A stretch of DNA of 49,750 bases. It comes from Deltaproteobacteria bacterium. Its GTDB lineage: Bacteria > Myxococcota_A > UBA796 > UBA9615. The translations under genes were made by a program, and so were the position numbers. Every line of letters begins with the position of its first letter. The first letter of the stretch is position 1. The stretch is from NCBI GenBank assembly GCA_023954745.1, contig JAGSHC010000016.1:1-49750 (forward strand), written 5' to 3'. The notes under the pieces were generated by a model, which saw nothing but the letters and a program-made list of their open reading frames with translations, was not told the origin of the DNA and did no database searches. This document shows, one piece after another, positions 4,037-42,828 of this stretch.

Positions 4037-4648
4037 TCACAGCACGTCGGTGAGATGCTCGACCGACTGCACCCGCCAGCCGACGCCGGGGCGGTGCTCC
4101 CCCATCCACCGCGCGATCTCCCGCGCCCCCACGAGAGCCGCCTCCAGCATGTCGGAGGCGGCGAGGAAGAAGGCGCGCTCTTCGTCTCCGGGGCTCACGA
4201 CGTGGAGCCGCCACCGGTGTTCCGGCACGGGCTCGACGATGGTCGCCGGCTCCGGAGTGGGCAGAGCCTGGGGCGTCCGGCGCGGAGCCATCTTGGCTTC
4301 GGGCTGGGGAGGCGGCGTGTACGAGGGACGGCGTCGGCGCAGGGGCTGAGGTGGCAGAGCCGGGCTGCGGACGGGAGAACGCGCGGGCTCGGGGGCTCCC
4401 TGGGGAGGAGACAGCAGTTCCACCCCCAGCAACTTGCGGGTGGCCGCGAACTTCTCCTTGAGCGCGGACGCCGCTTGCACGAGCGCCTCCGCGTGCGACT
4501 CGGTGGTCTCGCCGTCGGGCTGCGTCGTCTTGAGGGCGTCGAGGTTCCGCACGACGCGACGACGCTTCTCTGGAGCCTGCTGCTTCGGGGCTGGCTTGGG
4601 CTCCAGCTTGCGAAAGAGGGCTTCGGCCTTGCTGAGATGGTCGATCAC
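4037..4648 (-). CDS. Hypothetical protein with Pro-rich linker and C-terminal folded module
   Basis: The 203-residue product has no recognized family. The N-terminal third is helical and charged (ALVQAASALKEKFAATRKL), the middle is a Pro/Arg-rich disordered linker (about residues 85-130), and the last 70 residues look like a small globular domain (HRWRLHVVSPGDEERAFFLA ... IARWMGEHRPGVGWRVQSVEHL). There is no signal peptide or membrane helix, so it is predicted cytoplasmic. The GTG start at 4648 lies about 20 bp after the WYL stop; a start further upstream would overlap the WYL gene. It sits between a regulator and a glycosyltransferase in an apparently single transcript, which suggests an accessory role in that pathway. 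Confidence 0.65.
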   Translation of the reverse strand: MIDHLSKAEALFRKLEPKPAPKQQAPEKRRRVVRNLDALKTTQPDGETTESHAEALVQAASALKEKFAATRKLLGVELLSPPQGAPEPARSPVRSPALPPQPLRRRRPSYTPPPQPEAKMAPRRTPQALPTPEPATIVEPVPEHRWRLHVVSPGDEERAFFLAASDMLEAALVGAREIARWMGEHRPGVGWRVQSVEHLTDVL

Positions 4649-4668
4649 GAGGTCATTGTGACCGTTCC

Positions 4669-5730
4669 TCAGACGATCCGGAACACCTCGTCGGAGTCGG
4701 GCTCGCCCGCGCCGGGTTGCGCGGACCTCATCTGGGTGACCCAGGCCGCAACGCGCGCCGGCTTTTCGACCCGCAACCACGGCCCCCAACCCAGGAGCCA
4801 GGTCCGAAACTCACCTCCCGTGAAGACGTCGAAGGTGAGAGGAATCCAGCCGTCCGAGCTCGGCTCTCCGGTGGTCTGGCTCGGATGCCAGCGGCGGCGG
4901 CGCACAAGCTCCGCGAAGGCGGGATGGACCGCCAGGCGCACCCGCTCGGCAGCACCGGCGTAGAGCCCCCAGGAGGAGGCGAACATGGCCTCGGGGTTCC
5001 ACAGGCTGAGGCTCGGCATGGCGAAGGTCTGCTTGCGCAGCGTGATGGACCGGATGCGGTGCAAAGCGAACGTACGGATGCGGTCCGTGGCCCGGGCCGT
5101 GCCGCTCGGATCCGGCTCTGCGATGGCCCCGATCACTGCCAGCTCGGCCTCCCCGAGAAGCAGCGTGTACGGCCGGAACACGTAGTCGCGCCGACCTCCT
5201 TGTCTGCGTTCGTAGGAGAGCTCGACGACGCGCTGGTCGACGACGGCACGGAGGAGCTGATCGAAGACGAGACGCACGTCACCGGAGAGGGGCTGGGGTG
5301 CGCGCGCGAGTACGAACCGGCGCCCGAGACCCCGCAAGGAGCGGTCGATGAGGTCGGGATCGTTGGGGTCTTCGTCCTCGCCGGTGAGTTCGAAGATCAT
5401 CTGATCGAGCAGGTCGGCGACTCCGCCCGGATCGAAAGCGCGGAAGAACCGCTCCGCCATGGCCAGGGCCAGGATCTCGTAGGGCGAGCCCTTGGCGCGG
5501 TCGATGATGCGTACGTCGCGCAGGCGGTACTCCCGCGTACCGCGCTCGTCGACCTCGCGAACCTCGAACCCGTCTTGCTCGCCTTCAATGGCGGCGAGAT
5601 AACGCTTGATGGTGCGGTCGGTGACCTCCAGGCGACGAGCGAGGTGGCTCTTGGTGTGCCAACCCTCCCGAAGGAGATTGCAGCAGCGCAGCACTTGCTG
5701 CACCGGAGTGGCGCGATCGATCCCGGTCAT
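4669..5730 (-). CDS. HTH-WYL domain transcriptional regulator (YafY family)
   Basis: The 353-residue protein has an N-terminal winged helix-turn-helix (about residues 10-55; KSHLARRLEVTDRTIKRYLA), a central WYL domain (about 160-240; VVELSYERRQGG, FRPYTLLLGEAELAVIGA) and a C-terminal WCX-like extension (about 270-335). WYL regulators bind DNA as dimers and are thought to sense nucleic acid or nucleotide ligands. They commonly control defence, DNA-damage or carbohydrate genes. The ATG has no good Shine-Dalgarno, so the mRNA may be leaderless. An inverted repeat with 10-bp perfect arms lies 16 bp upstream of the ATG and probably is its own operator. It is the first gene of the operon that continues into the polysaccharide-synthase and two-component genes. 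Confidence 0.9.
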   Translation of the reverse strand: MTGIDRATPVQQVLRCCNLLREGWHTKSHLARRLEVTDRTIKRYLAAIEGEQDGFEVREVDERGTREYRLRDVRIIDRAKGSPYEILALAMAERFFRAFDPGGVADLLDQMIFELTGEDEDPNDPDLIDRSLRGLGRRFVLARAPQPLSGDVRLVFDQLLRAVVDQRVVELSYERRQGGRRDYVFRPYTLLLGEAELAVIGAIAEPDPSGTARATDRIRTFALHRIRSITLRKQTFAMPSLSLWNPEAMFASSWGLYAGAAERVRLAVHPAFAELVRRRRWHPSQTTGEPSSDGWIPLTFDVFTGGEFRTWLLGWGPWLRVEKPARVAAWVTQMRSAQPGAGEPDSDEVFRIV

Positions 5731-5746
5731 AACGTGAAGCTACCAA

Positions 5747-5769
5747 CCCGGGACAGGTTCTGTCCCGGG
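5747..5769. promoter_or_regulatory. Inverted repeat, probable operator of the WYL regulator
   Basis: Perfect 10-bp arms CCCGGGACAG and CTGTCCCGGG are separated by GTT, between the divergent WYL gene (ATG at 5730) and the small gene at 5835. It covers roughly -17 to -39 relative to the WYL start codon, where a repressor would block the promoter. No T-run follows either arm, which argues against a terminator. Autoregulation by the adjacent WYL protein is an inference. Confidence 0.6.
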
Positions 5770-5834
5770 GTCCGTTCATGCTCTCAACGTCGAAAGGGGC
5801 CTGACGCCGAACCCGGCCCCCAAGGAGATGCACC

Positions 5835-6209
5835 ATGGACTTCCAGCTCCCCCGCTCTGCCGCTGCCAACGAGCCCACCACCCTTCCCCTTCCCTTCCCG
5901 GACCAACCGGTGGAATTGGGGGAGCTCCCCGACGGCGCGGCGAACGAACCGCCAGTCCCGGCCGAGGGAGTTGTCCCACCTCCGATGGTCGGTACCCAGC
6001 CGGCCCGGGCCCCTCGCTTCGACTGGGAACCCGCGTGGCGGGGGCAGGACGCCCGCCTCGAGCGCGAGGCCCTCTTCGCACGACTCAGCACCCGCTGGCG
6101 TGAGGAGCGCCGCCGGCGTTACCTCGAGGCGGTCCTCAGCGCGCAGCCCGAGCACGAGCTGCCCTTCCGCCCGTACGGCGACCCTGTCACCCGGCCCGTC
6201 GCCGGCTGA
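5835..6209 (+). CDS. Small Pro-rich hypothetical protein
   Basis: The 124-residue product belongs to no family I recognize. A strong Shine-Dalgarno (AAGGAG, 7 bases before the ATG) supports translation. The first 65 residues are Pro/Glu-rich and likely disordered (TTLPLPFPDQPVELGELPDG). The last 55 form a predicted amphipathic, Arg-rich helix (ALFARLSTRWREERRRRYLE). No signal peptide or membrane segment is visible. It is divergent from the WYL regulator and shares the intergenic inverted repeat, so the two may be co-regulated. Confidence 0.7.
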   Translation: MDFQLPRSAAANEPTTLPLPFPDQPVELGELPDGAANEPPVPAEGVVPPPMVGTQPARAPRFDWEPAWRGQDARLEREALFARLSTRWREERRRRYLEAVLSAQPEHELPFRPYGDPVTRPVAG

Positions 6210-6332
6210 TGCTGGGATGGCCCTTCGCGGCCCCCACACCACTCAGGCTGCTGCGGAACACAGCCCGTCGTAGGGCCCCCGCCCGGAGCTGAGACGTTGC
6301 GGCCAGTGACGTGCCCTCTGGGAACCCTGTGT

Positions 6333-7649
6333 CTACGCCTTCTCGATGGCCATGACGACGAGAGAGCCCTCGGGCGACGTCGCGATCACGAGCGCCTTGC
6401 TGATCTCCCGCTCGACGGCCACGTGAATCCGAGACATGCCCCGCAGGGGCTCCAGCGGCTCGCCCAGATTCACCTGGGGAGCCACGCGTCCATCTTCCAT
6501 CGACTGGAGGGCGCCGACGAGGCCCAAGGTGGCGTGTCCCCCCTCCCCGAAGCCCGAGACCCCGGTGTGCACCGCGATGGTCAGCTCTGACAGGGAGTCT
6601 CCGAAGACGACGCTCAACGCGGCGGCTTCACCCACGTCCACTGAGTACAAGCCCGTCGCCGATGCGGCCACGTAGTCCACGTCCGCCGGGGTCCAACCCG
6701 CCTCCGCAATCACCCCCTCGAGGATGCGAATGAGCGGGTTGCAATCCGAGAGCCCACCACGGGGCGCGGTGGGTGGCACGAACACGTCGTTCCAGGCCTT
6801 CACGTAGGCGATGGGACGGGCGCCTCGGGCCCTCGCGCTGTCCGCGGTCTCGACGACGACCGCAGCGCCGACGTCGCCGGGCACGAGTCCGGTGGCGCCG
6901 CGGTCGAAGGGACGGGCCGAGGTCGCGGGGTCCAAACCGTCGTCCGCGAGCAGGCGGCTGCCGTGACGGAAGGTGCAGAGCCCCTCGGACGTGCCCGGGC
7001 CGGTTCCGCCCGCCACGAACTGGTCTGCGAGACCGAGGCGCAACGAATCCACCGCCTTGCCCACGGCCTGGAGACCCACGCTGGAGTGTCCCAGCAGGGT
7101 ATTCGCCGGTCCCCGCGCCGCGGCCTGAATCGATGCGTGGGCGGTGGGCATGTTGTTCATGAGCTTGAGAAAGTCGAAGCCCGTGAAGCCCTTCATCCCG
7201 CGGCCAATGCGTGCATCAGCGATGGAGTACCGGCCGAAGTGGGCCTCCTCGGGGTCGCCCATGACGTGAGTGAGCTTGCTGTGCTTCTTCAGCTTGGGGA
7301 AGTTCGTGTAGGAGCCGAGGTACACCCCGCGGCGGTCCATCACCTCCTCCGGGTCCGCGTCCGGTGCGTCCACCCCCGCCGACTTGAGGGCACGACCCAC
7401 GGCGCCGCAGGCGAGGAAGGTGAACTCAGTCATGGTGCCGGGACGGAGACCGCGTCCGCCTGGGAGCGCGCGGAGGTCCTTGTGCACGAACGCCGCTTGC
7501 GCGCCGTAGCCCGGAGGGAGCCCTTCGGCGCCCTTCTCGAACGGCCGCACCGCCGAGGTGCCCTCGAGCCAGGCTGCTCGGAATGCCTCGTCGTCCCCAG
7601 CGCCCGTCACTGCGCCGAACCCGGTGATCACGATGTCGTTGCTGCTCAT
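6333..7649 (-). CDS. Ketosynthase-like partner A (KS-beta / chain-length-factor type, catalytic residues lost)
   Basis: The 438-residue thiolase-fold protein begins with the KS signature IVITGFGAVTGAG. The FabF nucleophile position is Ser-189 (GPANTLLGHSSVG) instead of Cys. The first catalytic His motif (usually NAHGT) reads AASATG, and the second (usually GHLxxAAG) reads HTGVSGFGEGGHA. It therefore cannot condense in the usual way and resembles the KS-beta subunits that pair with an active KS and set chain length. The shared stretch LKLMNNMPTAHASIQ marks it as a close relative of the partner at 11686-13023. It overlaps the stop of the intact KS upstream (ATGA), so the two should be made in equal amounts and form a heterodimer (inference). 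Confidence 0.88.
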   Translation of the reverse strand: MSSNDIVITGFGAVTGAGDDEAFRAAWLEGTSAVRPFEKGAEGLPPGYGAQAAFVHKDLRALPGGRGLRPGTMTEFTFLACGAVGRALKSAGVDAPDADPEEVMDRRGVYLGSYTNFPKLKKHSKLTHVMGDPEEAHFGRYSIADARIGRGMKGFTGFDFLKLMNNMPTAHASIQAAARGPANTLLGHSSVGLQAVGKAVDSLRLGLADQFVAGGTGPGTSEGLCTFRHGSRLLADDGLDPATSARPFDRGATGLVPGDVGAAVVVETADSARARGARPIAYVKAWNDVFVPPTAPRGGLSDCNPLIRILEGVIAEAGWTPADVDYVAASATGLYSVDVGEAAALSVVFGDSLSELTIAVHTGVSGFGEGGHATLGLVGALQSMEDGRVAPQVNLGEPLEPLRGMSRIHVAVEREISKALVIATSPEGSLVVMAIEKA

Positions 7650-34068: not shown

Positions 34069-34542
34069 TCACGTGAAGATGATCTGGGCTCCGTCGGCCA
34101 TCTCATAGAAATCGCCTGCCGTGATCACGTCGGCCACCTGAGGAATCAGGTCCTTCTGGTCGATCTTCATCATGTCCATGGCCAACTGGCATCCGTAGAG
34201 CTCGGCGCCTGCGTCGGTGAGCATCTCCATCATCTCGCGCACGCCAGGCAGATCGAGGTCCTCCATCTGCTTCTTCATCATCGACGCGGCGAGGTTCTCC
34301 ATGCCTGGGAGTCCACCGATCATCGTAGGGATCGGACTTGCGGGGTTGCCCACGAGGTTCACGTGCAAGTGGTCCACCTTCTTGTCGGTGACGGCGTCGA
34401 GGCCGTAGAACGTGAAGAAGAGGACCGCCTCGATCCCGGACATGCGCGCGGCGTTCCCCAGGATGAGAGCTGGGTAGACCTCGTCGAGGCCTCCCTTGCT
34501 GACGATGATGGCGACCTTGCGCTGGGCTTCTTGAGTCTGCAT
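34069..34542 (-). CDS. dsrE2: DsrE2-type sulfur relay protein
   Basis: The 157-residue protein is translated from an ATG with a perfect AGGAG. It carries the DsrE2A pattern: KVAIIVSKGGLDEVYPALIL, FFTFYGLDAVT, VDHLHVNLVGNP, IGGLPGMENLA, and the conserved Cys-118 in ELYGCQLAMDMM that carries persulfide sulfur, ending VITAGDFYEMADGAQIIFT. In sulfur oxidizers DsrE2 works with TusA and rhodanese to hand sulfane sulfur to downstream enzymes (established for the family). Here it is the last gene of an operon with a DsrC-domain protein and an SQR-like flavoprotein, so it probably accepts sulfur derived from sulfide. No tusA or rhodanese gene is in the window. Confidence 0.87.
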   Translation of the reverse strand: MQTQEAQRKVAIIVSKGGLDEVYPALILGNAARMSGIEAVLFFTFYGLDAVTDKKVDHLHVNLVGNPASPIPTMIGGLPGMENLAASMMKKQMEDLDLPGVREMMEMLTDAGAELYGCQLAMDMMKIDQKDLIPQVADVITAGDFYEMADGAQIIFT

Positions 34543-34553
34543 TGGGATCTCCT

Positions 34554-35522
34554 CTAGATGCAGCCGACGGGCTTGGGCACGCCAGCGACGCGCGCCGCGG
34601 TCGAGCCCGGCGCCTTCTTGAACAGTTGATAGATGGCCTTCGTACCGAGGCCCGACAGGTTCGCCAGCTTGCGCACGTTCGGGGACGCGCCGACGGACAG
34701 GTAGTGGGCACGCATGGCATCCACGACCTGCCAGTGTTCGTCGGTCAGTTCGCCGATTCCCGCCTCCGCGGCCATGAGCACGGCAAACTCCCGGTTCCAG
34801 GTCTGCGGGTCCACCAGGAACCCACCACTGTCCAGCGCGTGCCCGGGAATGGTCACGCAGGCCCATCGGGCCAGACCGCCCTGCGCTTGCTTCGGGGCAC
34901 CGCCCGCTGCCGCCGGGGAGGCCGACCGCGCCGCAGGACGACGACGAGGCGCCGATCGGGTCACTGGCCGCGCCGCCCGACGCCCGCTAGGAGCGAGCCG
35001 ACTCGCGAGCCGACGCTGCCCCGGGGTCGCTCCCGAGTCCGACTGGGCCGCCTTGCCCACGGTCCTCAGGACCTCGAGCATCACCGCGAGACCACGCTGG
35101 ATGTCCTCGTCCTTCGACTTCCGAATCGCCCCGACGACCCCCACCGGGTCGAGCGCGTCGGCGCGGTGCAGGACATCGGTGGCTTCGTTGGCCACGTTGA
35201 GCACGTCGGACTGCGTGAGGTTACGGACCGTGTCGAGGATCCCGACCACCGCGTCGCCGAGCTCGTCCACGTCCTCGGAGGAGTAGCTGGTGGCCACTCG
35301 GTCGAGCAGGCGCAGGGTCGAGCGGCCGAATGCGAAGTAGCCGCGCTCTTCCCACTCACCGAGGCCCCGGGTGCCCGCGTCCATCATCGCCGTGAGGATC
35401 GGACCGGACTCGGACACCAGCTCCGACATGGCGCGCTGGCGGTCCAACAACAGATCGACCTTGTCGGACAGGGCCTCGATGCGACTCTCGACGGTCGCGT
35501 TGTGATCCAGAGGTGCGTTCAT
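34554..35522 (-). CDS. DUF1641-DsrC/TusE fusion protein
   Basis: The 322-residue two-domain protein has an N-terminal half (about 1-155) that is helical and ends in VGVVGAIRKSKDEDIQRGLA and MLEVLRTVGK, the signature of DUF1641. A basic Ala/Arg/Pro linker (160-215) follows. Residues 225-322 are a DsrC/TusE domain: GFLVDPQTWNREFA, LTDEHWQVVDAMRAHY, PNVRKLANLSG, and the flexible arm VAGVPKPVGCI with the penultimate Cys-321 (CysA). The second DsrC Cys (CysB), expected at residue 310, is Ala, as in TusE-like forms. DsrC carries persulfide or trisulfide sulfur; DUF1641 commonly accompanies SQR-like flavoproteins. The fusion probably ties a sulfur carrier to the flavoprotein encoded one base upstream (inference). 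Confidence 0.88.
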   Translation of the reverse strand: MNAPLDHNATVESRIEALSDKVDLLLDRQRAMSELVSESGPILTAMMDAGTRGLGEWEERGYFAFGRSTLRLLDRVATSYSSEDVDELGDAVVGILDTVRNLTQSDVLNVANEATDVLHRADALDPVGVVGAIRKSKDEDIQRGLAVMLEVLRTVGKAAQSDSGATPGQRRLASRLAPSGRRAARPVTRSAPRRRPAARSASPAAAGGAPKQAQGGLARWACVTIPGHALDSGGFLVDPQTWNREFAVLMAAEAGIGELTDEHWQVVDAMRAHYLSVGASPNVRKLANLSGLGTKAIYQLFKKAPGSTAARVAGVPKPVGCI

Positions 35523-35523
35523 G

Positions 35524-36753
35524 TCAGCTCCACTTCCCAGCCATCACCATCTTGTGATCGATGGGCAGGTCCTCGCCGCGCAGCAGCAGGTTCCAGTACA
35601 TCCACTTGAACCCCAGCTTCCCCCAGTGGTTCACATAGCTCTCCTCGAGCAAGGAGAACGGCCCGATACCGGGCAGCGGGAATCGCCCGGGCAGGGGCTC
35701 CGTCGTGTAGTTGAAGTCGATGAGGATCGCTTTGCCGTGCCCCGTCTCGATGAAGCAGTTGGCGTGGCCGTCGAAGTCGGGAGCGAGGTCGCGGCCACCG
35801 ATGAACCGCAGGATGTTCTCGGTCAGCACCTCGGCCTGGAAGTGGGCCACGGACCCCGCCTTGCTGGTCGGCAGGTCGGTGGCATCTCCCAGGACGAAGA
35901 TGTCGCGATGGGCGACGCTCTGCAGGGTGTGTTTGTGGGTGGGCACGAAGTCGGAGTCATCACCCAACTCCGACCGCTGCACGAGCCGGCTGCCGTAGTG
36001 CAGGGGCACCGTGACCAGGAGGTCGTAGGGCACCTCCCGCTCGTCGTAGCCGATGAGCTTCCCACCGACTCCATCGACCACCTCGGTGTTGAACTCCGTG
36101 ACCAGATGCACGCCCTTCTGCTCCAGGAGGTCCCCCAGCGCGGCGCTCGCGCGGGGCTTCGTGAAGGCGCCGTCCAGGGGGGTGGCGTAGACGAGCTCGA
36201 CCTGGTCCCGAATCCCTCGCTCGGCGAAGAAGGCGTCGGCGAGGAACAGGAACTCCAGGGGGGCCACTGGACACTTGATCGGCATGTCGACGACGTTCAC
36301 GACGAGCCGACCGCCCTGCCACTCCTCGAGCTTGCGCTGAAGGGCCGACGCCCCTTCGAGGGTGTAGAAATCGAACGCGGTCTCCATCCACCCAGGGCCA
36401 CACAGGCCTTGGGTCGCCTCGGGCGCGATGCGCGTCCCCGTCGCGATGATCAGCACGTCGTAGGACAGGCTCTCGCCGTCCTTGAGGCGGACGGTGCGCG
36501 CCTCGGCATCGACCCGGTCTGCTGGCGCCAGGCGCAGCTCGATCCCGTCGCCGAGGAAATACGAGCGCGGGCGCACGAGGTCCGCCTCGTCGTACATCCC
36601 GAACGGGAGGAGCAACAGACCAGGCTGATAGATGTGGTCGGCGTCGCGGTCGAGGACCGTGACCGACCACTCCGCGCGAGGCAGGACCTTGCGGAGCTTG
36701 TTGGCCATCATGGTGCCGGCCGTTCCGGCTCCGAGAATGACGAGGTTCTTCAT
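35524..36753 (-). CDS. Sulfide:quinone oxidoreductase-like FAD protein
   Basis: The 409-residue flavoprotein has the FAD-binding motif VILGAGTAGTMMANKL (residues 5-20), ATGTRIAP (about 104-111) and DIFVLGDATDLPTSKAG (about 284-300), the pattern of SQR/type II NADH dehydrogenase-like enzymes. Cys-161 in PIKCPVAPLEF fits the catalytic Cys of SQRs; other candidate Cys are 118 and 333. SQR oxidizes sulfide to sulfane sulfur and passes electrons to quinone at the membrane. The amphipathic C-terminus (HWGKLGFKWMYWNLLLRG) fits membrane docking. Ahead of it, two CRP/FNR-type boxes suggest regulation. It heads the operon SQR-(DUF1641-DsrC)-DsrE2. Whether it uses sulfide or a protein persulfide is open. 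Confidence 0.85.
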   Translation of the reverse strand: MKNLVILGAGTAGTMMANKLRKVLPRAEWSVTVLDRDADHIYQPGLLLLPFGMYDEADLVRPRSYFLGDGIELRLAPADRVDAEARTVRLKDGESLSYDVLIIATGTRIAPEATQGLCGPGWMETAFDFYTLEGASALQRKLEEWQGGRLVVNVVDMPIKCPVAPLEFLFLADAFFAERGIRDQVELVYATPLDGAFTKPRASAALGDLLEQKGVHLVTEFNTEVVDGVGGKLIGYDEREVPYDLLVTVPLHYGSRLVQRSELGDDSDFVPTHKHTLQSVAHRDIFVLGDATDLPTSKAGSVAHFQAEVLTENILRFIGGRDLAPDFDGHANCFIETGHGKAILIDFNYTTEPLPGRFPLPGIGPFSLLEESYVNHWGKLGFKWMYWNLLLRGEDLPIDHKMVMAGKWS

Positions 36754-36938: not shown

Positions 36939-37766
36939 TCAGGCGGACGCGGTGGCGTCGGCGCCGGGGACCGGGCCGCGGAGGCTGCCCTTGTCGGCCG
37001 GCCGGCCCTTGCGACCGAACACTTCGTGCTCGTCACACTCGCGCCACTGGACGAGCTGGTCGCCGATGGCGTTGCGCACCGCGTGCCCGAGCTGAGCGGC
37101 GGTGGGATCTTCGAGCTCGTTCATGTGCACCGGGGCGAGGACCTTGACCCGGATGCGCTTGAAGGGGCTGTCCCCTGCCCACGTCCAGGAACCCTTGGGG
37201 AGGATCTCCGAGGTGCCGTCGATGGCCACGGGCAGAACCGGCACGTCCTTCTCGACGGCCACCCGGAACGCGCCGGCCTTGAAGTTGCCCAGCGTGCCCG
37301 TGTCAGAGCGCGTGCCTTCGGGAAAGAGACCCACCGAGACTCCCTGGTCGATCCAGGCGCCGCACTCGTCGAGAATCCCGCGCGCGCTGAAGGGGTTCTT
37401 CAGGTCCGCGGCGATGTACCCCGCCCGGCGCATGTAGACAGCGAGCATCGGAATCTTGAAGAAGCGGATCCCCGAGACCCACTTGAAGTTGCTGCGCAGG
37501 CCCATCAGCACCAGGACGTCCATCATCGACTGGTGGTTGCTGCACACGAGGTAGGGGCCCTCCTCGAGTCGCTCGGCCCCCTCGATCTCGAGCTGCCAGA
37601 ACGGATTGAGGGCCCACACCATGACGCCCCACCAGAAGACGCCCACCCGGTGGAGGAGGGAGCGGGCGGGATCGAATCGCTTCGGCACGAGCAGGGTCGG
37701 CATCCCGAAGATGAACGACGCAAAGGCGCAGTTCAGCACGATGTGCCAGCAGAAGACGGTGATCAC
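36939..37766 (-). CDS. plsC: 1-acyl-sn-glycerol-3-phosphate acyltransferase
   Basis: The 275-residue membrane acyltransferase makes phosphatidic acid from lysophosphatidic acid. The N-terminus has one or two hydrophobic segments (about 3-26 and 43-56). Motif I is SNHQSMMD (His-78, Asp-83), followed by FFKIPMLAVYMRRAGYI, motif III GLFPEGTRS (Glu-150, Gly-Thr-Arg) and VPVLPVAIDGTS (motif IV). All catalytic and binding residues are present. The start is GTG at 37766 with weak ribosome-binding sequence. The C-terminal 45 residues after GDQLVQWR are charged and not part of the core. It is a single gene convergent with none, ending just above the CRP/FNR-type boxes. Confidence 0.92.
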   Translation of the reverse strand: MITVFCWHIVLNCAFASFIFGMPTLLVPKRFDPARSLLHRVGVFWWGVMVWALNPFWQLEIEGAERLEEGPYLVCSNHQSMMDVLVLMGLRSNFKWVSGIRFFKIPMLAVYMRRAGYIAADLKNPFSARGILDECGAWIDQGVSVGLFPEGTRSDTGTLGNFKAGAFRVAVEKDVPVLPVAIDGTSEILPKGSWTWAGDSPFKRIRVKVLAPVHMNELEDPTAAQLGHAVRNAIGDQLVQWRECDEHEVFGRKGRPADKGSLRGPVPGADATASA

Positions 37767-37934
37767 GAATCGGCGGACTGTCGAGATACGAACCCCTCAC
37801 CGCGCACTCCTCATGCACGAGCGGCGGCAGGATACAAAACCGGGTCCGGGGGTCCAGCGATTGTCCCTCGCGGGTCGGAAGTTGCCCTCGCCCGTGCCCT
37901 TTGCCGCTTCGGTTCGAGCGGTTAGAGTGCGCCG

Positions 37935-37956
37935 GATCGGGGGCGCGTCCCCGATC
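37935..37956 (+). promoter_or_regulatory. Hairpin in the 5' leader of the giant lipoprotein gene
   Basis: Perfect 8-bp arms GATCGGGG and CCCCGATC flank a GCGCGT loop, ending 15 bp before the ATG at 37972 and just upstream of the GGAGG ribosome-binding site. In mRNA it would form a stable stem next to the ribosome-binding site; in DNA it could be an operator. Which of these applies cannot be told from sequence. Confidence 0.5.
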
Positions 37957-37971
37957 ACCGCGGAGGACCGC

Positions 37972-40900
37972 ATGCGCAGTCGCCATCTGATCGCTCTCTT
38001 TGTCGCCGTTCTTGCTCTCGCCGGCTGTCCGGAAGACTCCACCGCTCCGCTGGTGTTCTCTCCCGAGCCGCTGACTGCCCCCGACGCACGGCCCTATTTC
38101 ACGAGCACCTCGACGGGTCAGCTCCTCAACGACTCGGGCCAGACCTACCAGGTCTCCGGCCTGACGGTCTCGGCTCAGGACGACGCCCAGGCCGTGGCCT
38201 TCCGCGTGACCTTTGCCGAGACGCCCAACGAGCCCGTCGTGCTCGAGCCCGGGCAGAGCGTCGCGCTGAACATCGAGTTCAGCCCGATCCTGCTCGGCGA
38301 CTACGCCGCCACCGTGACCGCAATCACGCGCTTGATCTCCTACGACATCGGCGGCGGCGGGTGCTCCGCTGGCTGCGGAAGCGACGCCCCTTCGGACAAC
38401 GAGCTGCTGGTGCAGACCACGATCGTCGCGCGCGCCGACGCAGAAGCGCCGTTCGAGGACTGCGACGACGGAGTCGACAACGACGGCGACGACCTCATCG
38501 ACTGCGATGACCCGGACTGCGAGAACGACCCGGCCTGCCAGGGCGAGGATGAGATCTGCGACGACGGAATCGACAACGACGGCGATGGCGCCATCGACTG
38601 CGACGACACCGACTGCGCCCTCGACCCCGCGTGCGGGGAGATCATCGGCTGCGAGCCCGGGGGCGAGATCGAGTGCAGCGACGTACTCAACGGCAACACC
38701 AGCGCATCGGACGACAACTGGCAGGACTACTGCGGCGCAGGCGCCGACAACTGGTTCGGTGGCGAGGACATCTACGTCTTCGAGCCCAACGGCGACGGCA
38801 CGGTCGAGGTAGCTGCCCAGGCCTTCGGCTGGAACCTCGACCTGACGGTCCTCGAGGCGACCCTCACGCCCCAGGGGGACATCTCCTGCGACCCGTCCGT
38901 GTGCGCGGCCAACTCCTGGAACTTCGGCGGCCCCGGCGAGTTCCTCGACTTCGAAGCCGACGGAGACAGCCTCTACTTCTTCGTCATCGACGGTCGCGGC
39001 CCCAACCCCACCGGCGAGTACGTGCTCCAGGTGCAGTGCGTCACGGGCGGGACCGAGGACATCTGCGACGACGGGCTCGACAACGACGCTGACGGGCTCG
39101 TGGACTGCGCCGACCCCGACTGCGCCGGCGACCCGGCCTGCGGTGAGGGCTGCGTGCCCAGCCAGACCCTTCAGTGCCCCGCCACGATCCTCACGGGCGA
39201 CCTGAGCGGCCCTGACGCGACCAACTCGGTCACCGACTGGTGCGATGAGGGCTTCAATGGGTGGACCGGCCCCGAGATCGCCTACCTCTTCACTCCGAAC
39301 AGCACCGGTGAGGTCACGGTCGACGCCAGTGGATGGCAGGGCAACGGGGACCTCGACATGACGGTCCTGCTGGTGCCGCCGCCGAGCCCCAACGGCGAGA
39401 TCGCGTGTGACCCCGAGCTGTGTGTGGAGACGAGCTGGAACCCCGGCGGCCAGCCCGAGAACATCACGTTCGAGGCCTTCGCGGGCACCTCCTACATCAT
39501 CGCCCTCGACGGCTGGGACGGCGCGGTGTCCGACTTCCAGCTGGTGCTGACCTGCGCCGGCGGCCCCGGTGAGATCTGCGACGACGGCATCGACAACGAC
39601 GGCGACGGCCTCGTCGACTGCGACGACGACGACTGCTTCTTCGATCCCGCGTGCCAGGGCGGCAACGAACTCTGCGACGACGGCATCGACAACGACGGGG
39701 ACGGCCAGGTCGACTGCGACGACGTCATCGACTGCCAGGCGTTCCCTGGCTGCGACTACGGCGGCGGCGACTGCTGCACCGACAACGGCAGCGCGGGGTG
39801 CGAGAACGACAGCGGCGAGGACTGCGTCTGTGCTGCTGACCCCTTCTGCTGCGAGGTCACCTGGGACTCCATCTGTGCGGACGTCTTCGAGAACCAGTGC
39901 GGCGGCGCCTGCGGCGGCAACAGCGAGACGGACTGCGCCAACAACGTCGACGACGACGGGGACGGACTCGTCGACTGCGACGACGCGGACTGCTTCGGCG
40001 ACCCGAACTGCCTCGCTCCCCTGGTCGAGACGGACTGCGCCAACACCATCGACGACGACGGGGACGGACTCGTCGACTGCGACGATGCGGACTGCGTGCT
40101 GGACCCCGCCTGCCTCCCCCCGGGCACGGAGATCTGCGACGACGGACTCGACAACGACGCCGACGGGTTCATCGACTGCGACGACACGGACTGCGTCCTG
40201 GATGCGGCGTGCGACGCCGGTGACGGCGAGTGCTGCGCTCCCGGGAACGGAACGCCGGGCTGCGAAGACGAGCTGGGTGAGGACTGCGTCTGCGCCGCCG
40301 ACCCCTTCTGCTGCAACGTCCAGTGGGACTCCATCTGCGCCAACACCTACGAGACGCAGTGCGGGGGCTCCTGCACGGGCACCGAAGTCTGCGACAACGG
40401 CACCGACGACGACGGAGACGGCTTCATCGACTGCGATGACGTGGACTGCGTCAATGATCCCAACTGCATCGCCCCCGGAATCGAGCTCATCTGCGACAAC
40501 AACGTTGACGATGACGGCGACGGCCTCACTGACTGCGCCGACCCCGACTGCGCAGCCGACCCCAACTGCGTCGTCCCGCCGAGCGAGACGGACTGCGCCG
40601 ACGGAGTCGACAACGACCAGGACGGCGACATCGACTGCGCCGACGCCGACTGCACCTTCGACGCGGCCTGCGACGCGGGCGACGGCGACTGCTGCACCGC
40701 CAACGGAACGCCCGGTTGCGTGGACGAGCCCGGTGAGGACTGCGTGTGCACCCTCGACCCGTTCTGCTGCAACAACCAGTGGGATGGCCTCTGCGCCTCG
40801 CAGTACCAGAACTCCTGCGGCGGCTCGTGCACCGGCACCGAGGTCTGTGACAACGCCCTCGACGACGACGGGGACGGCGACGTGGACTGCGACGACGCCG

Positions 40901-42828
40901 ACTGCCTCGGCGATCCGAACTGCCTCGTCCCCACCACCGAGCTCGACTGCGCCAACGGAATCGACGACGACCAGGACGGGGCCATCGACTGCGACGACGC
41001 CGACTGCGTGCTCGACCCCAACTGCAACATTCCGCCGGTGGAGACCAACTGCGTCGACGGCATCGACAACGACCAGGACGGCGACATCGACTGCGCCGAC
41101 GCCGACTGCGCGACCTTCCCTGGCTGCGTGAACCCGCCGGAGACCAACTGCGCCAACGGCATCGACGACGACGCCGACGGCCTCACGGACTGCAACGACA
41201 GCGACTGCCAGTTCGACCCCAACTGCGCGAACGGTGAGACCGACTGCGCGGACGGCATCGACAACGACTTCGACGGCGACGTGGACTGCGATGACGGCGA
41301 CTGCAGCGCGGACATCGCGTGCGTCTCCACGGGCGCGTGCAACCCCATCGGGAACATCACGTGCGGCGACGTCATCAGCGGCAGCAACAACATGGCGGGC
41401 AGCACGAACCAGCAGGACGAGTACTGCGGGTTCAACCCCGCCGGCTGGAGCGGCCCCGAGGTCTCCTGGCTGTTCACGCCGCCGACCGACGGCTTCGTGG
41501 ACATCACCCTGACGGGACTCACCGCCGATCTGGACATCCAGGCGCTGGTGCAGGATGGCAACTCCTGCGACCCCAACGACTGCGAGGCCAACGGCTGGAA
41601 TCCCCCGCCGCAGCCCGAGCAGATGGACTGGTTCGCTTTCGCCGGAACGCCCTACTACATCCTCATCGACGGGTGGCAGGGCGCGCAGTCGAACTTCACG
41701 ATGACGATCACCTGTACCCCGCTGAACGAGGTCGACTGCTCCGACGGCATCGACGACGACCAGGACGGCTTCGTGGACTGCGACGACACCGACTGCCTCG
41801 GCAGCGCCTCGTGCCCAGAGACGGACTGCGTGGACGGCGTCGACAACGACGCCGACGGCTTCATCGACTGCAACGACGTGGACTGCTTCGGCACGGTGAC
41901 CTGCATCCCCGAGTTCCTCTGCGACAACGGCCTCGATGACGACTCCGACGGCGACATCGACTGCGACGACAGCGACTGCGCCGCGGACCCGAACTGCGTC
42001 CAGCCCGGCAACGAGACCGTGTGCGACGACGGAGTGGACAACGACGGTGACGGCCTGACGGACTGCGCCGACCTGGACTGCGCCGGTGACGCGAGCTGCA
42101 CCGCGGAGGTCTGCGACGACGGCTTCGACAACGACGGCGACGGCGACGAGGACTGCTTCGACACCGACTGCCTCGGCTTCCCGGGCTGCAACGTCGAGAC
42201 GGACTGCAGCAACAACTTCGATGACGACGCCGACGGCCTCGCCGACTGCCTCGACACGGACTGCTTCGGGGAGCCCGGCTGCCCGCTGGTGCTCTTCAGC
42301 AGCGTCGACGACGACCCCACAGACTTCACGTTCGTGCCCCTGGGACAGAACGCGAGCAGCGTGCAGTGGGAGATCGGCGTCCCCGACACCACCCTCCAGA
42401 GCGGCAACGGACCCGCGACTGCCTACGGGGGCACCGAGGCCTGGTGCACCGGCTGCGACACCTCGGTGGAGGACAGCGGCCGCTTCCAGGCCTACATGAT
42501 CCCCAACCCGACGGTGTTCGACCTGAGCACCCTCTCGGGCGGCGACCTGGTCCTCGCGTTCCACCACTGGCAGGTCTCGCCCGGCATTCCCTTCGTGGAC
42601 ACTGCGCGCATCGACGCCTCGCCGGACGGCGGAACGACCATCAACACCGAGTGGGGGCCCAATGTGTCCAGCACCGGCGCATGGGACTACGTGGAGGTGG
42701 ACCTCTCCACCTACCTCGGTGGGGACCTCACCATCGGGTTCCGCTACGACACGCTGTTCGGATTCGGCGGCGGACAAGATGACGACGGCTGGTACATCGA
42801 TGACGTCGAGCTCATCTGGTACCCCTGA
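37972..42828 (+). CDS. Giant lipoprotein with 22 Cys-rich DNDGDG calcium repeats, PPC-like and Cys modules
   Basis: The product is 1618 residues from an ATG preceded by GGAGG. The lipobox ends at Cys-19 (AVLALAGCPED). After an N-terminal domain of about 140 residues come 22 units of about 30 residues, CDDGIDNDGDGxxDCxDxDC, the putative metal-binding repeat related to MopE and thrombospondin type 3 repeats; the Asp ladder should bind Ca2+ and the Cys should form disulfides. Interspersed are three beta-rich domains ending in W.G....F.L...C, like bacterial pre-peptidase C (PPC) domains, and three Cys modules of the pattern CVCAADPFCCxxxWDxxCA. The last 180 residues form a MAM/jelly-roll-like domain (DDDGWYIDDVELIWYP). 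It is probably a long rigid adhesin or surface scaffold (inference). No protease active site is seen. Confidence 0.88.
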   Translation: MRSRHLIALFVAVLALAGCPEDSTAPLVFSPEPLTAPDARPYFTSTSTGQLLNDSGQTYQVSGLTVSAQDDAQAVAFRVTFAETPNEPVVLEPGQSVALNIEFSPILLGDYAATVTAITRLISYDIGGGGCSAGCGSDAPSDNELLVQTTIVARADAEAPFEDCDDGVDNDGDDLIDCDDPDCENDPACQGEDEICDDGIDNDGDGAIDCDDTDCALDPACGEIIGCEPGGEIECSDVLNGNTSASDDNWQDYCGAGADNWFGGEDIYVFEPNGDGTVEVAAQAFGWNLDLTVLEATLTPQGDISCDPSVCAANSWNFGGPGEFLDFEADGDSLYFFVIDGRGPNPTGEYVLQVQCVTGGTEDICDDGLDNDADGLVDCADPDCAGDPACGEGCVPSQTLQCPATILTGDLSGPDATNSVTDWCDEGFNGWTGPEIAYLFTPNSTGEVTVDASGWQGNGDLDMTVLLVPPPSPNGEIACDPELCVETSWNPGGQPENITFEAFAGTSYIIALDGWDGAVSDFQLVLTCAGGPGEICDDGIDNDGDGLVDCDDDDCFFDPACQGGNELCDDGIDNDGDGQVDCDDVIDCQAFPGCDYGGGDCCTDNGSAGCENDSGEDCVCAADPFCCEVTWDSICADVFENQCGGACGGNSETDCANNVDDDGDGLVDCDDADCFGDPNCLAPLVETDCANTIDDDGDGLVDCDDADCVLDPACLPPGTEICDDGLDNDADGFIDCDDTDCVLDAACDAGDGECCAPGNGTPGCEDELGEDCVCAADPFCCNVQWDSICANTYETQCGGSCTGTEVCDNGTDDDGDGFIDCDDVDCVNDPNCIAPGIELICDNNVDDDGDGLTDCADPDCAADPNCVVPPSETDCADGVDNDQDGDIDCADADCTFDAACDAGDGDCCTANGTPGCVDEPGEDCVCTLDPFCCNNQWDGLCASQYQNSCGGSCTGTEVCDNALDDDGDGDVDCDDADCLGDPNCLVPTTELDCANGIDDDQDGAIDCDDADCVLDPNCNIPPVETNCVDGIDNDQDGDIDCADADCATFPGCVNPPETNCANGIDDDADGLTDCNDSDCQFDPNCANGETDCADGIDNDFDGDVDCDDGDCSADIACVSTGACNPIGNITCGDVISGSNNMAGSTNQQDEYCGFNPAGWSGPEVSWLFTPPTDGFVDITLTGLTADLDIQALVQDGNSCDPNDCEANGWNPPPQPEQMDWFAFAGTPYYILIDGWQGAQSNFTMTITCTPLNEVDCSDGIDDDQDGFVDCDDTDCLGSASCPETDCVDGVDNDADGFIDCNDVDCFGTVTCIPEFLCDNGLDDDSDGDIDCDDSDCAADPNCVQPGNETVCDDGVDNDGDGLTDCADLDCAGDASCTAEVCDDGFDNDGDGDEDCFDTDCLGFPGCNVETDCSNNFDDDADGLADCLDTDCFGEPGCPLVLFSSVDDDPTDFTFVPLGQNASSVQWEIGVPDTTLQSGNGPATAYGGTEAWCTGCDTSVEDSGRFQAYMIPNPTVFDLSTLSGGDLVLAFHHWQVSPGIPFVDTARIDASPDGGTTINTEWGPNVSSTGAWDYVEVDLSTYLGGDLTIGFRYDTLFGFGGGQDDDGWYIDDVELIWYP
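38454..42290 (+). repeat. 22 degenerate coding repeats of about 90-96 bp
   Basis: In-frame repeats encode the DNDGDG..DC calcium units, in blocks of 2, 1, 2, 3, 3, 5 and 6 separated by the PPC-like domains and Cys modules. GAC/TGC codons dominate, so the strand is strongly purine-patterned and leaves a very long spurious open frame on the opposite strand. Units vary in sequence at most positions, pointing to old duplication. Confidence 0.85.

Follow-up and report, generated by a model that had tools for sequence, protein, structure and literature searches.

What is a DUF1641 domain doing in the same protein chain as the sulfur carrier DsrC, next to a sulfide:quinone oxidoreductase (SQR)? The question is raised by a gene in a 49,750-nucleotide stretch of DNA (the window) from a deltaproteobacterium assigned to Myxococcota_A. 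The answer that we consider probable is that the gene is a conserved fusion, part of a four-component module for sulfide oxidation (SQR-DUF1641-DsrC-DsrE2) that works by the mechanism proposed below.

The operon and its fusion gene

The fusion gene belongs to a tight operon with the order SQR, fusion and DsrE2-like gene, all encoded on the reverse strand of the window:

35524..36753, reverse strand: type III sulfide:quinone oxidoreductase, 409 aa (NF049943; aligns with human SQOR 8dhk)
35755-35757, reverse strand: codon of SQR Cys-333, the apparent selenocysteine site of the NF049943 selenoprotein form (Cys in 81/81 SQRs)
35523..35523, reverse strand: single base separating the SQR stop from the fusion start
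34554..35522, reverse strand: coding sequence of the DUF1641-linker-DsrC fusion, 322 aa (open reading frame, Pfam; architecture also in 17 other genomes)
34548..34553, reverse strand: Shine-Dalgarno-like AGGAGA, right after the fusion stop, 5 nt upstream of the DsrE2 start
34069..34542, reverse strand: DsrE2-like sulfurtransferase, 157 aa (PF13686, 112 bits)

The SQR scores 613 bits against the type III model NF049943 (cut-off 525) and aligns with human SQOR 8dhk at an E value of 2e-38. Its Cys-161 and Cys-333 are invariant among the SQRs compared (81/81), and both align with cysteines of human SQOR, the known redox pair of that enzyme. The downstream gene product has a Cys-118 that is invariant in 76/76 proteins. 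Its score of 102.8 bits against the curated DsrE2 equivalog NF047629 is below the cut-off of 210, and it is therefore described here as a PF13686 member only. The operon of the original prediction is supported as SQR, fusion and DsrE2-like gene. A second, weak DsrE2-like frame (34.8 bits in all) occurs in the genome at positions 28239-28445 of contig C328 (L088, genome G000). Since only one base lies between the SQR stop and the fusion start, translational coupling of the two genes is likely. No sigma-70-type promoter turned up when the sequence ahead of the operon was scanned, a result that carries little weight in such a GC-rich genome. Elsewhere in the window, a 1740-aa frame on the forward strand (37606-42828) contains many repeats of the DNDGDGLVDCDDxDC type and probably encodes a secreted metal-binding repeat protein.

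The 322-aa frame begins with ATG, contains zero internal stops and is divided as follows:

35028..35522, reverse strand: DUF1641 region, residues ~1-165, all-helical and without cysteine (PF07849, AlphaFold, ForE1 profile match)
35052-35147, reverse strand: Pfam core of DUF1641 (PF07849)
34848..35027, reverse strand: Ala/Arg/Pro-rich linker, residues ~166-225, mostly disordered (pLDDT)
34557..34838, reverse strand: DsrC/TusE domain, residues 229-322 (PF04358, TIGR03342, Foldseek)
34593..34595, reverse strand: Ala-310 codon at the CysB position (Ala, Ser or Thr in all 77 DsrCs)
34560..34562, reverse strand: codon of the penultimate Cys-321, CysA (invariant in 77/77 DsrCs)

Both Pfam domains exceed their cut-offs: DUF1641 (PF07849) with 31.4 bits at residues 126-157 (cut-off 21) and DsrC (PF04358) with 91.1 bits at residues 229-322, which make up a complete domain (cut-off 24.9). 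The chain is therefore a true DUF1641-DsrC fusion, as originally predicted, and the range in which a DUF1641 profile had been expected to match (residues 80-155) covers most of the match found. Assignment of the C-terminal part to the DsrC/TusE family is also given by TIGR03342 (77.9 bits, cut-off 53.5), together with the penultimate Cys-321, and by a Foldseek match to 2v4j_C with a target TM of 0.82. The AlphaFold model of the fusion has a confident DsrC domain, a helical DUF1641 region (mean pLDDT 86.6) and a linker that is disordered at about residues 176-218, where pLDDT drops below 50 at residues 176-191 and 196-218.

Conservation and origin of the fusion

The distribution of the module was surveyed in 80 loci obtained from a genome-contig scan with SQR as the query, a design that detects only fusions adjoining an SQR. 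DUF1641 and DsrC share one frame in 18 rows, that of the window and those of 17 further genomes, with Myxococcota in the majority. In 47 loci they are separate adjacent genes beside SQR, in agreement with the earlier statement that the two are normally encoded apart. The order SQR-DUF1641-DsrC-DsrE2 is common to these 47 unfused and the 18 fused loci, a few of which are cut by contig ends. Unfused loci are found in Bacteroidota, Calditrichota, Fidelibacterota, Chloroflexota, Gemmatimonadota, Verrucomicrobiota and others. They often lie near genes for FNR/CRP-like regulators and PhsA-like, NrfD-like and YeeE/TsuA-like proteins, neighbours that fit with sulfur-compound metabolism. Because the genes stand apart elsewhere in the same order, the fusion acts as a "Rosetta stone" for a module that is conserved. 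In several unfused loci (L024, L025, L031 and others), DUF1641 carries an extra N-terminal degenerate repeat of ~55 aa which is absent from the fused form.

A rival reading is an accident of frame or assembly that joined two neighbouring genes in this contig. In its favour, the linker is of low complexity, and its codon GC pattern (0.78/0.83/0.71) is unlike that of its flanks, as expected of an Ala/Arg/Pro-rich stretch. In two related genomes (G002 and G005), contigs also end within the linker, so that SQR-DUF1641 is found on one side of the break (L002) and DsrC-DsrE2 on the opposite side (L003 and L004). However, DUF1641 and DsrC stand in one frame in 17 other genomes, where 40-87 aa of linker separate them, and a single clade is supported by the trees of SQR, DsrC and DsrE2. 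The start of the linker is homologous in frame between the window (RLASRLAPSGRR) and another fused locus, L007 (RLESRLAPSLRR). In the fused row L015 the frame changes where the DsrC domain ends, and this row was excluded from the fusion alignment. An accident is vanishingly improbable and has already been refuted by the independent genomes. The fusion is genuine and conserved, since 17 other genomes share it and its members fall into single 100/99 clades; the misassembly that could have undone the original prediction did not occur.

In trees built on a subset of the loci, the fused DsrCs come together in a single clade supported at 100/99, as do the fused DsrE2s. In the corresponding 100/99 clade of the SQR tree, the fused rows are joined by two rows from contig edges and by L006, an unfused locus. 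In this Acidimicrobiales MAG (positions 4270-6944) the separation of the genes is real, as they have a stop, a ribosome-binding site and a start of their own. Its SQR groups with the fused clade, whereas its DsrC and DsrE2 are placed among unfused lineages, and fission inside the fused clade was rejected because these two proteins fall outside it. Most simply, the L006 operon looks like a mosaic. Taken with the fused DsrC and DsrE2 clades, this suggests that the fusion most likely arose once.

The DsrC domain

CysA is invariant in the DsrCs of the module (77/77), and none of them has CysB (0/77), the position being occupied by Ala in 34, Ser in 31 and Thr in 12. The earlier observation that CysB is replaced by Ala-310, leaving only the penultimate Cys-321 available, was correct, and this loss is not special to the fusion. 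Organisms that lack DsrAB have been reported to show this pattern of substitution (PMC3397948). The genome contains no match to the NIR_SIR domain of siroheme sulfite reductase, an absence with which a CysB-less DsrC is consistent. By both measures, the protein differs from the two-cysteine DsrC that acts as a co-substrate of DsrAB.

A role as TusE in tRNA 2-thiouridine synthesis, with SQR as an incidental neighbour, would also explain a missing CysB, as in TusE. The fusion is the only DsrC/TusE homolog found in this genome, which also encodes a single TusA elsewhere. However, it scores 57.7 bits against the TusE equivalog NF008562, far below the cut-off of 191. Its gene order with SQR and DsrE2 is kept across many phyla, and it is tied to the partner subunit of SQR. 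We regard the TusE role as quite improbable. Even less credit is given to DNA binding by a regulatory DsrC domain through its helix-turn-helix-like fold. Weak LexA- and TetR-like matches were returned by Foldseek and Pfam, but the strong matches are DsrC structures only, and CysA is invariant.

The role of DUF1641

The original prediction took the fusion as a clue to a role of DUF1641 in sulfur transfer. Such a role for the domain itself is not supported: it lacks cysteine in the window and in 67/68 loci scored, and covalent sulfur carriage by DUF1641 is therefore impossible here. Its relative ForE1 is a menaquinone-coupling subunit. In a profile search of the PDB (hmmsearch), DUF1641 matches ForE1 at E=3e-6 over ~120 residues, and hhalign gives a probability of 92.6 for the same pair, establishing homology. 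ForE1 is required for the use of menaquinone by Bacillus formate dehydrogenase and most likely binds MK-7 (PMC8808070). A second relative, the PF07849 protein YjlC, is entered in the PDB under the name 'NDH-2 membrane coupling protein'. Fragments of ForE1 and YjlC each match PF07849 above its cut-off, and the window SQR has a homolog in YjlD (E=1.8e-11), the NDH-2 that shares entry 9pxk with YjlC. YjlC alone matches the DUF1641 profile weakly (E 0.09-0.18). A de novo designed helical protein scores near ForE1 (E 9e-6), through short repeated pieces and not along the domain, which shows that scores of this kind are raised in part by helical bias. When the DUF1641 model, whose pTM is only 0.42, was searched with Foldseek, no ForE1 or YjlC match was returned, a point against the coupling reading given next.

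Because of the relationship to ForE1 and YjlC and the homology of YjlD to SQR, DUF1641 is most simply read from sequence as a candidate quinone- and membrane-coupling subunit of SQR and not as a sulfur carrier. Alternatively, DUF1641 may have no part in quinone coupling and may be a scaffold that brings DsrC to SQR, thereby taking part in the transfer of sulfur between the two. Constant adjacency followed by fusion to a sulfur carrier would suit a scaffold, as would a group of 12 loci, mostly from Cyclobacteriaceae, Flammeovirgaceae and Rhodothermota, in which SQR adjoins DsrC with no DUF1641 gene between or beside them (L029, L041, L048, L050, L054, L060, L064, L068, L075, L076, L077 and L080). 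There, DUF1641 is not always needed, which also counts against the coupling reading: the loci retain SQR, DsrC and DsrE2, and it is not essential for electron flow. No compensating membrane helix was seen in the C-terminal tails of their SQRs. A scaffold is harder to reconcile with the near-complete lack of cysteine and with relatives that work with formate dehydrogenase and NDH-2, neither of which moves sulfur. In a Huc-type hydrogenase operon, too, the first gene is DUF1641 (PMC12976888). On balance a pure scaffold seems unlikely, and quinone coupling by this particular DUF1641 is the reading carried forward.

A proposed mechanism

In the proposed module, sulfide would be oxidized by the type III SQR flavoprotein at Cys-161 and Cys-333. 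The DUF1641 part would bind SQR and link it with the membrane and with the (mena)quinone pool, a service that ForE1 performs for formate dehydrogenase. DsrC would be held on a flexible tether of ~60 residues, with Cys-321 as the acceptor (or donor) of sulfane sulfur. This cysteine would exchange sulfane sulfur with Cys-118 of the DsrE2-like protein, from which sulfur may go on to TusA or another acceptor.

In A. vinosum, the penultimate cysteine of DsrC receives sulfur from Cys78 of DsrE, and sulfur moved from DsrEFH to DsrC, not in reverse (PMC3397948). Given this one-way transfer, the direction from SQR through DsrC to DsrE2 is unsure. If sulfur flowed the other way, DsrE2 would load Cys-321 and the SQR-like flavoprotein would use the DsrC-bound sulfane sulfur, in a process resembling sulfur or polysulfide reduction or disproportionation. 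The A. vinosum direction and the PhsA-like and NrfD-like neighbour genes in Bacteroidota speak for such a flow, but the SQR retains both cysteines and scores well over the type III cut-off, and we are inclined to doubt it. With sulfide oxidation as the preferred reading, SQR could pass sulfur directly to Cys-321 of the DsrC tethered on its coupling subunit, with neither release of polysulfide nor a small-molecule acceptor. An undescribed complex of this kind is a serious possibility, though short of an even bet.

To our knowledge, the fate of the sulfur produced by many SQRs is unknown. A conserved module that has been welded together in one lineage names a directly testable protein acceptor for it, and carries the idea of DUF1641 as a 'coupling subunit' beyond formate dehydrogenase and NDH-2 into sulfide oxidation. 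The literature search found no paper linking DUF1641 to DsrC or to sulfide quinone oxidoreductase; as far as the literature searched shows, the parts are known while the fusion and the four-gene module are undescribed.

Comparison with known systems

ForE1 (YjgD) of the Bacillus subtilis ForCE formate dehydrogenase (PDB 8rqz, 8rr0, 9gzq) is the relative of DUF1641 whose structure has been solved and whose biochemistry has been published. It belongs to the same Pfam family, matches along most of the domain and is the partner subunit of a quinone-linked dehydrogenase. Here, in contrast, the partner would be SQR instead of formate dehydrogenase, DsrC is fused, and quinone coupling is proposed by analogy. 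YjlC (PDB 9pxk, 9snk) shares PF07849 and has a partner homologous to SQR, but it lacks an attached sulfur carrier and its direct profile score is weak; a literature search found no paper on the YjlC complex. The window SQR resembles the selenoprotein subtype of type III SQR described by NF049943, differing in Cys-333, which stands where selenocysteine appears to be in that form (HxxU motif, PMC13188914). The DsrC part shares with the DsrC/TusE family (TIGR03342, PF04358) a full domain, the penultimate cysteine and the fold, and is set apart by Ala in place of CysB, a genome without DsrAB and the N-terminal DUF1641. Finally, the DsrEFH-DsrC relay of A. vinosum offers a parallel for sulfur exchange between a DsrE-family cysteine and the penultimate cysteine of DsrC (PMC3397948). 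In the module described here, a single DsrE2-like protein would take the place of DsrEFH, DsrAB is absent, and DsrC is tethered to the putative partner of SQR.
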